A stretch of DNA of 64,000 nt, taken from positions 124,001-188,000 of the forward strand of contig NZ_KE384561.1 in NCBI RefSeq assembly GCF_000426725.1, read 5' to 3'. Below the pieces are notes generated by a model. It was not told where the DNA came from. It worked only from the letters and a program-made list of their open reading frames with translations, and did not search any database. Below are positions 51,625 through 56,664 of this stretch, in pieces. The stretch comes from Sporocytophaga myxococcoides DSM 11118 (GTDB lineage Bacteria > Bacteroidota > Bacteroidia > Cytophagales > Cytophagaceae). The position numbers and the translations under genes are program-made. Every line of letters starts with the position of its first letter. Within the stretch, counting starts at the first letter, position 1.

Positions 51625-51963
51625 TTAATCCCCGATTATGAGGTCCGCTATATAATTGACCAACGACACTATCAAACTAAATAAAAGCGCCCACCAGAAA
51701 TTCCTGACCTCGAACCCATCAATCATCCAATCTGTCAATAGAATTATCACGGCATTAATTACCAGCAAAAATAGACCTAAAGTAAGGATGGTAACCGGTA
51801 TTGTTAATAGGATTAAAACGGGACGAAGGATCACATTTAAGATAGACAGAACAAACATTACCAACAATGCAACTCCAAAACTCTTAATCAAAATTCCTGG
51901 TAACAGAAATGCGGCACCAAGAATGATAGCTGCTGAAATTAAAAGTTTGAATATATACTTCAT
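51625..51963 (-). CDS. Small four-helix membrane protein, phage-holin/Gp46-like family
   Basis: 112 residues with four hydrophobic helices: IFKLLISAAIILGAAFLLPG, SFGVALLVMFVLSILNVI, VLILLTIPVTILTLGLFLLVINAVIILL and FWWALLFSLIVSLVNYIADLIIG. The central pattern PVTILTLGLFLLVINAVIILLTDW is typical of the family annotated as phage holin (D29 Gp46-like), which in most chromosomes is a conserved membrane protein without phage context. First gene of a three-gene minus-strand operon. Confidence 0.85.
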   Translation of the reverse strand: MKYIFKLLISAAIILGAAFLLPGILIKSFGVALLVMFVLSILNVILRPVLILLTIPVTILTLGLFLLVINAVIILLTDWMIDGFEVRNFWWALLFSLIVSLVNYIADLIIGD

Positions 51964-52717
51964 CTCTGGTTCTTTTTGATTGTAGGCAATATCGTACTTA
52001 TTCTATGAACACTTTCAAATTCCTCATTGTTAAACTTCACAAAAAGTACTTCAATTAACAATTGTATTTTTTCATCAAATTAATAGTAACTCCAACCAAT
52101 TTACAATTATAAATTCCTGAATAAAACAAATGTAAACCAGCTCAATTTACATTTATAACTATATAATTTTTCTAATAAAATAAACCAAGCGAGACTAAAT
52201 GAATTCTTTTTTATTGCTTATATAAGTAAAAATTAAATTTCATACCAGTACAATTTTAAATTCCATTTACATTTAAAGTAAAAGTTCAAAATAATAACAT
52301 ATGTAAACTGATTATAAAAGTATTAATAATTAAAATTATCAAAATGCTAAAATTATTAGTAATTGATTAAGTGTAAATTTTGAGTGGTTTATAATTGTAA
52401 ATTGCTTATTTAATAACTTACCTACATATCTAATTTACAAAAATAAACTATCCAAAAAATATAAATAAAACAGTATCATATTGTCATTTTACAATTGTAA
52501 CAAAACATATTTATCTTACATTTTTACTGTATTTACAAAATTAAACAGCAAAAGAATTTTTAAAAGAAAAGCTAGATTTGGAAATAGGAAGAGAACAGCT
52601 GATCCTGAACAAAAAAATAACTTATCTATTAAAGAGAAGGGAAGCCTAAAAATCCTAATTGGAATTAATATCTGCATTCATTAATTTCAGTAATCAATTC
52701 TTATAAATTTATTATCT
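51964..52717 (+). promoter_or_regulatory. AT-rich leader upstream of pstS with TTTACA/TGTAAA motif array
   Basis: 750 bases without a gene. The hexamer TTTACA or its reverse complement TGTAAA occurs repeatedly between 52100 and 52537: 52100, 52131, 52146, 52266, 52302, 52372, 52396, 52434, 52488 and 52532, with near matches at 52495 and 52515. TTTACATTT occurs twice exactly (52146, 52266) and the palindrome TTACAATTGTAA once (52489-52500). A regulator-binding role for phosphate control is inferred from the position before pstS; the hexamer resembles the Bacillus PhoP repeat TT[ATC]ACA, but no regular 11-base spacing is seen. An open frame at 52481-52684 has no coding character. Confidence 0.55.
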
Positions 52718-53641
52718 ATGAAGAGGGTAGTTTTATTTTTTCTCATTGTTGCACTTTTTTCGTCTTGTGGAGACGATGAAAATAATATAACTATTTCTGG
52801 AGCCTTTGCCTTGTACCCTCTGGCTATAAAATGGGCTGAAGAATATAATAAAATACATCCTGAAGTTAAAATTGACATCACCGCCGGAGGAGCAGGAAAG
52901 GGTATGGCAGACGTCATTTCAGGGAATGTAGATTTAGGAATGGTCTCCAGAGAAATTAATCCAGTGGAACTTGAACGAGGGGCTTTTGGAATTGCAGTAA
53001 CTATCGATGCTGTAATTCCAACCATCAATGACAAAAATCCCAATATTGCCGAAGTACAAAAAAAAGGACTAACGAAAGAAAACTTTCAAGATATCTGGAT
53101 CACGGAAAAATTAAAAACATGGGGGGATGCTGTAGGGACAACATCCAAGGATCCTATCAAAGTTTATACCCGTTCGGATGCTGCAGGTGCACCTGAAACA
53201 TGGGCTAAATATCTTGGAAAAAAACAGGAAGATTTAAAAGGTGTCGGAGTATTTGGAGACCCAGGTCTTGCTCAAGTTGTGAAACAAGACAAGTTTGCAA
53301 TTGGATTTAACAACATCGCTTATGTATATGATCTAAAAACAAGCAAACCATTTCCTGGTATCCAGGTCATCCCGATCGACATTGATGGAAATGGCAGAAT
53401 TAGTCCGGAAGAAAACTTTTACGGTACATTAGGCGAACTTATGGAAGGAATAGCCAAAGGAGTTTTTCCTCACCCTCCTGCCCGTCCATTATATTTTGTA
53501 ACTAAAGGAGAACCTACTTCAAAAACAATAAAAGCGTTTTTAAACTGGGTACTGACCGACGGACAGAAATTTGTGAAAGAAGCAGGGTATGTAAATCTAT
53601 CCAAAGATCAACTTGAAACGGAAATTAAAAAACTAAAGTAA
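52718..53641 (+). CDS. pstS: Phosphate-binding lipoprotein PstS
   Basis: 307-residue periplasmic phosphate receptor for the Pst ABC transporter. Signal peptide with lipobox (LFSSCGDDE). Phosphate-site segments are visible: ITISGAFALYPLAIKWAEEY (about 24-43), DITAGGAGKGMADVISGNVDLGMVSREI (about 52-79), and VYTRSDAAGAPETWAKYLG (near 149). The SGAFALYP wording differs from the common SGSSTVYP, and is the branch seen in several PstS-like substrate-binding proteins. It is followed by a 440-base gap before pstC, an arrangement that allows pstS to be made in excess. Confidence 0.9.
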   Translation: MKRVVLFFLIVALFSSCGDDENNITISGAFALYPLAIKWAEEYNKIHPEVKIDITAGGAGKGMADVISGNVDLGMVSREINPVELERGAFGIAVTIDAVIPTINDKNPNIAEVQKKGLTKENFQDIWITEKLKTWGDAVGTTSKDPIKVYTRSDAAGAPETWAKYLGKKQEDLKGVGVFGDPGLAQVVKQDKFAIGFNNIAYVYDLKTSKPFPGIQVIPIDIDGNGRISPEENFYGTLGELMEGIAKGVFPHPPARPLYFVTKGEPTSKTIKAFLNWVLTDGQKFVKEAGYVNLSKDQLETEIKKLK

Positions 53642-54082
53642 GCTAGAAAAATGTTTTTATTGCCTGACTTTTACCTTGACGAGTCAGGCACCAAGTAAAA
53701 TTGAATTTTTTATTGTCTATTCAGACCGGCTGCAAGCTCATTTCTTATCCTTCGGAACTTTTCAATATTTATTTTACATTTTGGATTGCCTTTAAACTGC
53801 TTGATTGTTGTTCATTATAAAATCTTTCAGAAGATTTGTTAAAGAATTTTCAATAAGAAAAAAATACTGCTGTCCTTCCATGTCATATAAGCATTTCCAA
53901 AGATGAGTTTTTCAATCGGGAAAAACATTAACTGAAGTTAATAGGAGAAGCCTTAGATCTGGAAATTTATCAAAATGAATTTATTTAAAATTCTTATGTA
54001 CTGACAAACTTTATCTCCACTGAAAGGTAAATAAGATTAAATCATCAGATTATACTAGACCACATTACCAAAGGGGGATATC
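53642..54082 (+). other. Intergenic region between pstS and pstC
   Basis: 440 bases without a gene. The hairpin TGCCTGACT / AGTCAGGCA (53661-53669 with 53682-53690) is followed by an A/T-rich stretch and may attenuate or stabilise the pstS transcript. One TTTACA occurs at 53773. The region 53800-54060 shows no gene. AAGGGGGAT just before the pstC start is an unusually strong Shine-Dalgarno-like sequence for this window. Confidence 0.5.
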
Positions 54083-54991
54083 TTGGGAAAAATAGATTTT
54101 TATCATAGGCGACTCTGGATAGAGAAACTTAGCTTCTGGGCAATGAAAGGCCTTACCTACTTTTCAATCACACTCCTTTTTTTGATATTAATCGGACTAA
54201 TATATAAGTCTTTGCCTATTTTACAAGAAACTTCATTAGGACATCTATTCTTTTCCATAGAATGGCAGCCATTGAAAATGAAATTTGGTCTGCTTCCGTT
54301 TATTATTAGCACACTCTATGTAACTACAGTTGCTATTATCATTTCAGTACCACTTTGTCTTCTCTGCGCTATATACCTTTCAGAATATGCCGATAAAAGA
54401 ATTATAGCCTTTGTTAACCCATTGATAGATATTCTTGCAGGCATCCCCTCAGTTATTTTCGGTATCTGGGGGATTATTGAAGTAGTGCCCCTGGTTAGAG
54501 ATTTTATTGCTCCGGCATTCGGGACTACTTCTTCAGGCTATACCATACTTACTGGAGGCATTGTCCTTTCTATTATGATCTTTCCGATCATCATACACGT
54601 TCTGCTGGAAGTATTTGAAACAATACCAACAGATCTAAAAAATGCTTCGCTTTCTGTTGGAGCCACAAAATGGCAAACTGTAAAATTTGTAATCCTTAGA
54701 AAAGCTGCACCAGGAGTTATTTCGGCTGTTGTTCTGGGACTTTCCAGAGCGTTTGGAGAAACACTAGCGCTATTAATGGTAGTGGGAAATGTCATTATGA
54801 TTCCTATCAGTCCTTTAGATCCAGGATATCCTCTTACCGCTTTAATAGCTAATAACTATGGTGAAATGATGTCTATTCCTCTTTACGATTCTGCCTTAAT
54901 GCTTGCATCCCTGATCCTTTTTGTAATAGTACTGATCTTCAACTTTATATCCAGAAGAATTCTTAAAAATATAGAAAGAAAAATTGCATAA
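54083..54991 (+). CDS. pstC: Phosphate ABC transporter permease PstC
   Basis: 302-residue inner-membrane permease with six hydrophobic helices. The EAA-like coupling motif is LKNASLSVGATKWQTVKFVILRKAAPGVISAVVLGLSRAFGETLALLMV (about 190-240). The start is TTG 54083, chosen because it is preceded by AAGGGGGAT with a good spacing; the next ATG would remove the cytoplasmic N-terminus. It overlaps the frame of pstA slightly and forms the heterodimeric channel with it. Confidence 0.92.
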   Translation: MGKIDFYHRRLWIEKLSFWAMKGLTYFSITLLFLILIGLIYKSLPILQETSLGHLFFSIEWQPLKMKFGLLPFIISTLYVTTVAIIISVPLCLLCAIYLSEYADKRIIAFVNPLIDILAGIPSVIFGIWGIIEVVPLVRDFIAPAFGTTSSGYTILTGGIVLSIMIFPIIIHVLLEVFETIPTDLKNASLSVGATKWQTVKFVILRKAAPGVISAVVLGLSRAFGETLALLMVVGNVIMIPISPLDPGYPLTALIANNYGEMMSIPLYDSALMLASLILFVIVLIFNFISRRILKNIERKIA

Positions 54992-54995
54992 GACT

Positions 54996-55844
54996 ATGAA
55001 CATTAATAAAGTGGAAGAAGGGATTTTTAAAGTATTGATGAAGGCATCTACTTTACTCGTATTGGTCAGTCTGTTTTTAATCATTTACAGCATACTTCGA
55101 AAGGGTTTACCATCCTTGTCCTGGGCTATGATTACTCAAACACCAAAAGGAGGATTCTTCCTTGGGAAAGGTGGAGGAATTTTGAATGCAATTGTCGGAT
55201 CTTTATACCTAGCCGGAGGTTCAACAATTCTAGGATTATTCATAAGTCTTCCTGTTGCCCTTTACTTGAATATATACAGAACAAAAACCTCCCGATTTGC
55301 AGATTTTACACGTCTCTGTCTGGATGTTTTGTGGGGAATCCCTTCGATTGTTTATGGTGCATTCGGATTTGCAATCATGTTATTAATTGGACTAAAAGCT
55401 TCTTTACTTGCAGGAATTTTTACCCTTACTTTAATGGTTATACCTATAATGGTAAGAGCTATGGATGAAGTTATAATGACGGTGCCGAAGGGTTTGATAG
55501 ATGCCTCTTATTCACTTGGTGCAACCAGGTTTGAAACATCTCTGAAGGTGGTAAGTAAACAGGTTTTACCAGGAATTCTCACTGCTGTTTTAATTTCCTT
55601 TGGAAGAAGTATCGGGGACGCCGCTTCTGTGCTATTTACTTCTGGATTTACAGATAGAATTCCAACTTCGTTGATGCAACCCGCCGCAAATTTGCCCCTG
55701 GCCATCTTCTTTCAGTTGAGTACTCCTATCCCTGAAGTTCAAGACAGAGCCTATGCATCTGCATTGGTGCTAACCTTAATCATTCTTATAATAAGTATCT
55801 TATCCCGAATAGCTACCAAAAAATTCACTAAACATAAAGTTTAG
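54996..55844 (+). CDS. pstA: Phosphate ABC transporter permease PstA
   Basis: Second Pst permease. ATG 54996 (MNINKVEEGIFKVLMK) is preferred to the TTG at 54984; it lies four bases after the pstC stop. About six hydrophobic helices; the EAA motif is LIDASYSLGATRFETSLKVVSKQVLPGILTAVLISFGRSIGDAASVLF (about 169-216). 282 residues. Confidence 0.92.
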   Translation: MNINKVEEGIFKVLMKASTLLVLVSLFLIIYSILRKGLPSLSWAMITQTPKGGFFLGKGGGILNAIVGSLYLAGGSTILGLFISLPVALYLNIYRTKTSRFADFTRLCLDVLWGIPSIVYGAFGFAIMLLIGLKASLLAGIFTLTLMVIPIMVRAMDEVIMTVPKGLIDASYSLGATRFETSLKVVSKQVLPGILTAVLISFGRSIGDAASVLFTSGFTDRIPTSLMQPAANLPLAIFFQLSTPIPEVQDRAYASALVLTLIILIISILSRIATKKFTKHKV

Positions 55845-55860
55845 TTTAAATAGGAGACAG

Positions 55861-56664
55861 ATGAAAAAGGCAACTGAAATATTCATTCCGCTAATGACTG
55901 ACATTTGTGCCGAAGGTAATATTTGTGTCGAGGGATTAAATGTTCACTATGGAGACAGACATGCCCTCAAGGATATTAACATTACCTTACCAGCAAAAAA
56001 AATCACGGCTATCATCGGTCCATCAGGTTGCGGAAAAACAACTTTACTTAAATGCTTTAACCGTTTGATAGATTCCATTGACGGAACTAAAGTTACAGGT
56101 AAGGTAATGTTAAATGGAGAAGATATATTTGACCCTCACGCTGATGTGATTAACATCAGGAAAAAAATGGGACTTTTGTCTCAAAGACCCTACCCTTTAC
56201 CAATGTCAATCTTTGACAACGTAGCATACGGCCCAAGAATACATGGCACAAGGAAAAAGTCAGAACTTAATCAGATCGTCGAATATTACCTAAAGGAAGC
56301 TAGTCTATGGGACGAAGTCAGAGATAGGCTCCATACTCCCGCATCAGGACTGTCTATAGGACAACAACAAAGGCTTTGTCTTGCAAGAGGTCTTGCCGTG
56401 AAACCGGAAATTATTCTGGGAGATGAACCAACATCTGCATTAGATCCCATTTCTAGTGCTCACATTGAAGAGAAATTTGTAGAGTTTAAGAATAGATATA
56501 CCATCGTAATGGTAACCCACATACTCAGACAGGCTATCCGTATAGCTGACTACATTATATTTATGTATCTGGGAGAAATTATTGAACATGGTCCGGCAGA
56601 GCAATTGCTGGAAAATCCGAAAGACAAAAGGACTTCAGATTATATTAAAGGTATAATAAGCTAA
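55861..56664 (+). CDS. pstB: Phosphate ABC transporter ATP-binding protein PstB
   Basis: 267-residue ATPase of the Pst importer. Walker A is GPSGCGKTTLLKCFNRL (about 54-70), the Q-loop GLLSQRPYPLPMSIFDNVAYGPRIHG is the PstB-typical sequence, the signature is LSIGQQQRLCLARGLAV (LSxGQQQR), Walker B is IILGDEPTSALDP and the switch His lies in VMVTHILRQAIRIAD. No phoU follows; a terminator ends the operon 0-40 bases later. Confidence 0.94.
   Translation: MKKATEIFIPLMTDICAEGNICVEGLNVHYGDRHALKDINITLPAKKITAIIGPSGCGKTTLLKCFNRLIDSIDGTKVTGKVMLNGEDIFDPHADVINIRKKMGLLSQRPYPLPMSIFDNVAYGPRIHGTRKKSELNQIVEYYLKEASLWDEVRDRLHTPASGLSIGQQQRLCLARGLAVKPEIILGDEPTSALDPISSAHIEEKFVEFKNRYTIVMVTHILRQAIRIADYIIFMYLGEIIEHGPAEQLLENPKDKRTSDYIKGIIS

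Follow-up and report, generated by a model that had tools for sequence, protein, structure and literature searches.

In Sporocytophaga myxococcoides DSM 11118, the spacer in front of a second, phoU-less pst-like operon carries about nine copies of the palindrome RTTTACAwwTGTAAAY over 493 bases. These copies are likely to be operators for a putatively auto-regulated HTH/XRE-type regulator encoded elsewhere in the genome (C1:419549-420622), situated to act on the operon or on the gene divergent from it. The palindrome is conserved in four species of the genus, and it also stands in front of the regulator's own gene. A second phosphate-type transporter is probably controlled by a previously unrecognised regulator in this bacterium.

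The hexamer array and the adjoining pst-like operon

The window, which is the whole stretch of 64,000 nucleotides that was analysed, contains a spacer of 754 bp (51964-52717, A+T 78.5%) that separates a divergent gene from a pstS-like gene. The genes concerned are as follows.

51625..51963, minus strand: divergent small membrane protein (Phage_holin_4_2 / PF04020 family; Pfam E 2.7e-30)
52718..53641, plus strand: pstS-like substrate-binding protein of the SGAFALYPL type (Pfam PBP_like_2, E 8e-31; TIGR02136 125.7 bits, below the cut-off of 206.6)
54083..54991, plus strand: pstC-like permease (TIGR02138 267.6 bits, above the cut-off of 196.45)
54984..55844, plus strand: pstA-like permease (TIGR00974 200.4 bits, above the cut-off of 193.45)
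55861..56664, plus strand: pstB-like ATPase with no phoU after it (TIGR00972 345.2 bits, above the cut-off of 343.2)

A sequence-only reading of this DNA had spoken of the pst operon. That name holds insofar as the PstC, PstA and PstB homologues pass their family cut-offs, but the genes, in the order pstS-pstC-pstA-pstB, form a second set without phoU, while the canonical operon lies on contig C2. The only PhoU found in the genome belongs to that canonical operon, which is preceded by a Porin_O_P protein and has a PhoB-like response regulator encoded within a few kb. Judged by its genes, the array-linked operon is a second phosphate-type system with a putative substrate. Its PstS reads SGAFALYPL where canonical PstS has DGSSTVYPI, and the gene shares 96% and 90% identity with its counterparts in two Sporocytophaga metagenome-assembled genomes. 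More distant relatives of this PstS type (∼51-57% identity) occur in Methanoperedens-type archaea and in scattered Bacteroidota, a distribution that suggests lateral transfer; the substrate is perhaps another oxyanion. Between pstS and pstC lies an unusual gap of 440 bp (53642-54082) with no listed open reading frame of at least 80 amino acids, and a short inverted repeat can be seen by eye directly 3' of pstS. The divergent gene is a possible further target of the array.

The hexamer TTTACA/TGTAAA occurs exactly ten times at 52100-52537 (438 bases), in agreement with the ten copies in about 440 bases first reported. Dinucleotide shuffling predicts 1.78 copies (sd 1.28) for the whole spacer and 1.60 for positions 52095-52540, and ten were reached in 0 of 5000 shuffles of either stretch (maxima 9 and 7, respectively). 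Two identical copies of TTTACATTT on the plus strand and the palindrome TTACAATTGTAA (52489-52500) had also been described and are present; a third copy of TTTACATTT lies on the minus strand. The sequence-only reading had further proposed counting the motif elsewhere, and no similar density was met. None of the other 441-base windows of the 64 kb holds more than three hexamers, nor do any of 13 windows of 446 bp with A+T of at least 0.76 outside the array hold more than two, though so few windows make a weak control. Across 1.52 Mb scanned (24% of the Sporocytophaga genome) the pst array is the densest hexamer cluster; the runner-up among independent clusters has six (C10:43134) and the rest have five at most.

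The palindromic unit and its conservation

Flanking bases first pointed to TTTACAwTTrTAAAC. Spacing tests were made in the own genome and in three other Sporocytophaga species (G017, G016 and G018, the order in which four values are given here). Inverted TTTACA-N2-TGTAAA pairs with up to three mismatches number 12, 10, 10 and 11 against ∼3.1 expected, counts that were reached by 0, 1, 0 and 0 of 300 shuffles. The unit was taken as a dyad because this gap-2 palindrome alone is strongly enriched in all four species; since it was picked after the arrays had been inspected, the independent part of this evidence is the enrichment tests. At the other inverted gaps most species do not rise above background; the scattered exceptions are gap 5 (own genome), gaps 1 and 4 (G017), gap 4 (G016) and gap 0 (own genome and G018). 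All four species show a mild excess of direct repeats at period 9 (10, 14, 10 and 12 against ∼6; reached by 42, 3, 24 and 16 of 300 shuffles), which the palindrome model leaves unexplained, and G017 also shows one at period 10 (12; 7 of 300 shuffles). An extended direct repeat, TTTACA-N4-TAAAC, was considered and dropped, as the regulator promoters show its C to correspond to the outer Y of the palindrome. No clear helical phasing was detected at periods of 10-12 (best values 0.75, 0.70, 0.85 and 0.61 against random means of 0.60, 0.74, 0.74 and 0.61), so that a simple filament stacked on one face is not supported.

The sites were scored with a 16-bp matrix built from 73 sites in 21 promoters of regulator homologues outside Sporocytophaga; the four Sporocytophaga promoters and that of one homologue without operators (G090b) were left out. 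Its consensus is RTTTACAwwTGTAAAY. Applied to the pst spacer, it returns nine sites of 9.8-18.4 bits.

52054..52069, operator site 1, ATTAACAATTGTATTT: 11.2 bits; no exact hexamer; kept in G017 and G018, weaker in G016
52099..52114, operator site 2, ATTTACAATTATAAAT: 15.6 bits; 6, 6, 6 and 5 of 6 hexamer bases in the four species
52122..52137, operator site 3, TAAAACAAATGTAAAC: 9.8 bits; 6, 5, 6 and 6 of 6 hexamer bases
52145..52160, operator site 4, ATTTACATTTATAACT: 13.2 bits; TTTACA identical in all four
52293..52308, operator site 5, AATAACATATGTAAAC: 13.9 bits; 6, 6, 5 and 6 of 6 hexamer bases
52387..52402, operator site 6, GTTTATAATTGTAAAT: 16.1 bits; 6, 6, 5 and 6 of 6 hexamer bases
52433..52448, operator site 7, ATTTACAAAAATAAAC: 10.9 bits; TTTACA identical in all four, right half variable
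52487..52502, operator site 8, TTTTACAATTGTAACA, the palindrome of the sequence-only reading: 18.4 bits; 6, 6, 6 and 5 of 6 hexamer bases
52531..52546, operator site 9, ATTTACAAAATTAAAC: 10.3 bits; TTTACA and TAAAC identical in all four

In several of these sites TATAAA or TTAAAC replaces a clean TGTAAA half, and the scores of four are just 9.8-11.2 bits. Summed over the spacer the score is 124.8, where shuffles average 8.4 and peak at 46.9 (0 of 1000 shuffles reach it; the maximum was 53.2 in a second set of 300). In G017, G016 and G018 the sums are 120.7, 108.6 and 133.9, against shuffle maxima of 38.9, 38.7 and 52.6.

The array is conserved within the genus. The three other species have 9, 7 and 10 hexamers in the 750 bp before pstS (∼1.7-2.0 expected; observed counts reached by 0 of 500 shuffles each). 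In the four-species alignment, five or six of the six bases are retained throughout in 8 of the 10 hexamers; the other two, at 52266 and 52372, depart from the extended motif and are not preserved in every relative. Within the operator cores 85 of 108 columns are invariant, and outside the cores 137 of 393 array columns are. None of 520 circular shifts of the site set reached 85 (maximum 82), a somewhat generous test in that the alignment program itself favours matched sites. Sites of at least 9.5 bits number 9, 6, 6 and 9, the spacings of shared sites agree within ∼3 bp (one G018 site is ∼8 bp off), and the distance from array to pstS is kept. The expected conservation before pstS thus stood within the genus and failed outside it, with no operator cluster in 44 pstS-type loci of other genera scanned. 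Isolated matches of at least 10 bits occur in 6 of these 44, one of them (L019) ∼130 bp before pstS. As for hexamers, the count is 0-2 in each of 25 further pstS-type loci examined in the family, and 20 of 21 named loci from other groups have 0-1; the remaining one, from Ignavibacteria (L006), has three (0.93 expected; 32 of 500 shuffles reach three). The pst link of the array rests on one genus, Sporocytophaga.

Further observations concern the leader. Between array and pstS, positions 52608-52635 read GAACAAAAAAATAACTTAT[CT]TATTAAAGA, almost unchanged in the four species while the surroundings diverge; the element could be a candidate leader or RNA element, and inspection by eye showed no start codon there that would suit a leader peptide well. 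The conserved promoter element of Bacteroidota, the -7 box, is TAnnTTTG. It was looked for in the pst leader and found not to be conserved, and no conserved promoter was identified in this leader. In G018 an extra T in a T-run near the start of pstS (L032, minus strand) gives an apparent frameshift, possibly an assembly error.

The sequence-only reading had proposed that the array is a binding platform for a phosphate-response regulator or a nucleoid protein. A multi-site platform for a protein is well supported by the four-species footprint together with the matching operator elsewhere, from which we infer binding. A nucleoid protein is an unlikely occupant, given the specific unit and the few clusters in the 1.52 Mb scanned. 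The analysis does not support a phosphate-response regulator. In PhoB/PhoP sites the half-site recurs as a direct repeat with a spacing of about 11 bp, and TTTACA resembles the Bacillus PhoP half-site; a regulator of this type would bind the TTTACA half-sites and induce pst in phosphate starvation. The operon does code for PstC, PstA and PstB homologues, and the genome encodes a PhoB-like response regulator (L086:14551-15243; TIGR02154 221 bits, below the cut-off of 296). However, direct repeats 11 bp apart are not enriched consistently across the four species (11, 6, 6 and 9 against ∼6 expected; reached by 19, 163, 154 and 59 of 300 shuffles), and the gap-2 palindrome is found instead. The reading had also proposed a search for the same motif at other phosphate genes: the canonical pst-phoU operon has neither hexamers nor matrix matches within 600 bp upstream of its porin gene, and TTTACA is lacking in the gap between porin and pstS and at a pstS-like gene on C3. 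Upstream of the PhoB-like gene there is one TTTACA and no matrix match of at least 8 bits. Moreover, in other genera and families it is an unrelated regulator gene that the palindrome precedes. A Pho-box array is accordingly very improbable, even though both settings lie upstream of pst genes in Bacteroidota: PhoB of Bacteroides fragilis binds the pst promoter, for which the portion of the text consulted gives no site sequence (PMC3547664), and the consulted main text of a study on phosphate in F. johnsoniae contains neither 'Pho box' nor 'binding site' (PMC8115612).

A probable HTH regulator with the palindrome at its own promoter

Whole-genome pattern searches led to two further places in the genome, the promoter of an HTH gene at C1:419549 and an array on C10. 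The protein encoded by this gene (C1:419549-420622, L078) starts with a probable HTH of the XRE kind, continues with a long acidic linker and ends in an IVIFYxDGTF tail; the gene is preceded by the sites TACATTTGTGAATTACAATTGTAAAC, GTTTACAAAATACAA and TACATTTGTGAAG. These palindromes are kept in the four Sporocytophaga species, in a spacer that is 92% identical overall and so gives a weak footprint. The HTH matches HTH_19 (24.1 bits, cut-off 30.2; E 3e-5) and HTH_3 (21 bits, cut-off 23; E 3e-4) in Pfam, its alignment is conserved across the homologues, and the protein scores 29.3 bits against the RstR family NF041951 (below the cut-off of 80). Its nearest solved-structure match is a 'C protein' (2l49/2xcj, E 0.0065, residues 1-66), which we take to be that of phage P2. 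The similarity to this small XRE/Cro-CI repressor is very weak and limited to the HTH, and P2 C binds direct repeats.

Among 148 genomes sampled from the phylum, 18 encode homologues of the regulator (E <= 1e-9), the regulator's own genome included; the matches listed all fall in one class, under five family labels (f1, f3, f6, f7 and f10). Another search found them in 8 of 9 genomes, and the own genome has a single homologue at E <= 0.001. The motif accompanies these genes closely. Among 26 homologue upstream regions, 25 have at least one TTACAnnTGTAA at no more than one mismatch within 300 bp, and 23 have at least two; in all, the 26 upstream windows contain 78 sites, and 221 other windows of 300 bp from these loci contain 18. 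The 26 regions comprise 19 places from the 148-genome search plus the best place in seven further genomes. Some belong to close relatives and are therefore not independent, and the three weakest of the 11 matches from the nine-genome search (the second and third in G003 and the second in G001; 29-31% identity) were left out of the count. The lone miss, G090b (37% identity), lacks both the operators and the C-terminal tail, and G063 (36% identity) has both. All 25 operator-bearing proteins end in the tail [IV][IVL][ILVF][FL]Yx[DN]x[TSKH]F, a pattern composed after the tails had been inspected.

Neighbours of the regulator gene vary by clade. By Pfam, they include a Peptidase_M14 gene in three genomes (G047, G113 and G121) and a ClpX-like AAA gene in G003; in G015 they are a receiver/histidine-kinase gene and a thioredoxin-reductase-like oxidoreductase, with lookalikes in G014. 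It is the HTH gene that the motif follows. Sites at the regulator promoter are 12-13 bp apart in the own genome, G001 and G003, and ∼33-36 bp apart in several f7 genomes; at pst the spacings are ∼23, 45 and 54 bp, plus two longer gaps. In G015 (L161) and G014 (L162/L163), the two g10 genomes, the regulator gene lies ∼7.5 and 22 kb from a pst-like operon on the same contig, but the pst genes of these genomes gave no operator match.

Within the 1.52 Mb scanned (24% of the genome), five clusters hold at least three sites of at least 8 bits per 450 bp. The top three are the pst array (8 sites), the C10 array (5) and the regulator promoter (3); the other two are weak three-site clusters at C19:66903 and C20:337997, and in the latter (C20:337997-338236) two sites out of three fall within a gene that has no Pfam match. 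Among the matches listed, many isolated strict matches elsewhere are intragenic and look like chance. The C10 array (C10:43125-43362, L074:7126-7363) comprises ATTTACGATTGTAAAT, GTTTAAAATTGTAAAT and the double site TTTGTAAATCTTTACAATTGTAAAT, starts just after an SDR gene, and has versions in all four Sporocytophaga species. Between it and the downstream ispG gene, L074:7630-7978 carries a perfect 21-bp tandem repeat of 8.3 copies, GAAAATTGGAGTTCTGAACTC, followed by a degenerate 21-bp array; this stretch varies in length and sequence between species.

Two known repressor systems resemble this arrangement. The operator of CopR-CopY, BlaI and MecI is given in the part of the source consulted as the 16-bp palindrome RNYKACANNYGTMRNY, with more than one operator per promoter (PMC7253601). 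Compared by eye, this near-identical consensus is essentially the same string pattern as RTTTACAwwTGTAAAY, and multiple operators are a shared feature. The systems differ in that the site-bearing gene here codes for a probable XRE-type HTH protein and that sites number up to about nine. Operators for a BlaI/MecI/CopY-family repressor are nonetheless exceedingly improbable. A search for PF03965 proteins found none at E <= 0.001 in the Sporocytophaga genome, which is 99.96% complete, whereas the same search was positive in 7 of 14 control genomes; no BlaI/CopY gene was recognised by eye among the open reading frames around 15 of 24 own-genome TTACAnnTGTAA places. Known PF03965 members are thereby ruled out.

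The second resemblance is to the non-canonical LexA-type repressors of Bacteroidota, S24-family proteins with a CI-like HTH, for which the consulted part of the source gives the sites GGA-N5-TCC, CTAA-N5-TTAG and TTAC-AAATT-GTAA (PMC8565304). According to the same text, they share with the present case the phylum, a phage-repressor-like HTH, palindromic operators of the TTAC...GTAA form (TTAC-N5-GTAA) and the targeting of their own promoter, with two or more sites in some promoters. Their spacer is 5 bases, however, and at this spacing (gap-3 inverted hexamers) the arrays show no enrichment (3, 4, 4 and 4 against ∼3), in contrast to the 4-base spacing. In Pfam the regulator whose promoters bear the motif matches HTH_19 and HTH_3 only and has no S24 peptidase domain; it carries the IVIFYxDGTF tail, and it is not known to have SOS targets. 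That the array consists of LexA operators is thus highly unlikely. For the regulator family or its operator, no description, function or site was found in literature searched mostly outside subscription papers, and the literature on Bacteroidota phosphate regulation and on Sporocytophaga does not describe the family either.

Proposed control and its implications

In the favoured reading, the regulator would control its own gene through the repeated operator, a wiring apparently kept across several families of the class. In Sporocytophaga it would have taken over the spacer between the phoU-less pst-like operon and the divergent membrane-protein gene. Regulator dimers would occupy the palindromes and fill the array, and the site spacings at the regulator promoters and at pst would permit cooperative filling. 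By analogy with CI-type repressors, occupancy would repress the regulator itself along with one or both of the genes flanking the pst array; the direction of control at pst, like the binding there, is what we infer. The regulator promoters could in principle be bound instead by another protein that controls the regulator.

The array might alternatively serve as a decoy (sponge) or nucleoprotein-assembly site that sets the free level of the XRE regulator. About nine sites are more than simple repression needs, the second array stops ∼800 bp before the next start codon, that of ispG, and long arrays also surround the regulator's own gene, as in G001 (8 matches of at least 15 bits over ∼820 bp, two of them inside the gene). 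Yet the pst array sits between divergent genes and keeps its distance to pstS in four species, as expected of local control, and a decoy role is on balance unlikely. Returning to operators for local control by the HTH regulator, a more general and tentative proposal is that its unnamed family (HTH, variable linker and IVIFYxDGTF tail) builds long multi-operator nucleoprotein arrays at its own promoters across several families, and that in Sporocytophaga it may have captured the phoU-less transporter, so that phosphate-type uptake would gain a switch independent of PhoB.

An unexplained A+T-rich spacer thereby becomes a testable regulon, and a regulator family with members in 18 of the 148 genomes sampled from the phylum gains a candidate operator. 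Specialists could make immediate use of the association of tail and HTH with the operator (25 of 26). Two cautions follow for the annotation of such genomes: a BlaI/CopY site should not be assumed from a TACAnnTGTA palindrome here, nor a Pho box from a TTTACA array before pst. For Sporocytophaga itself, the array suggests that a pst-like transporter is under non-PhoB control.
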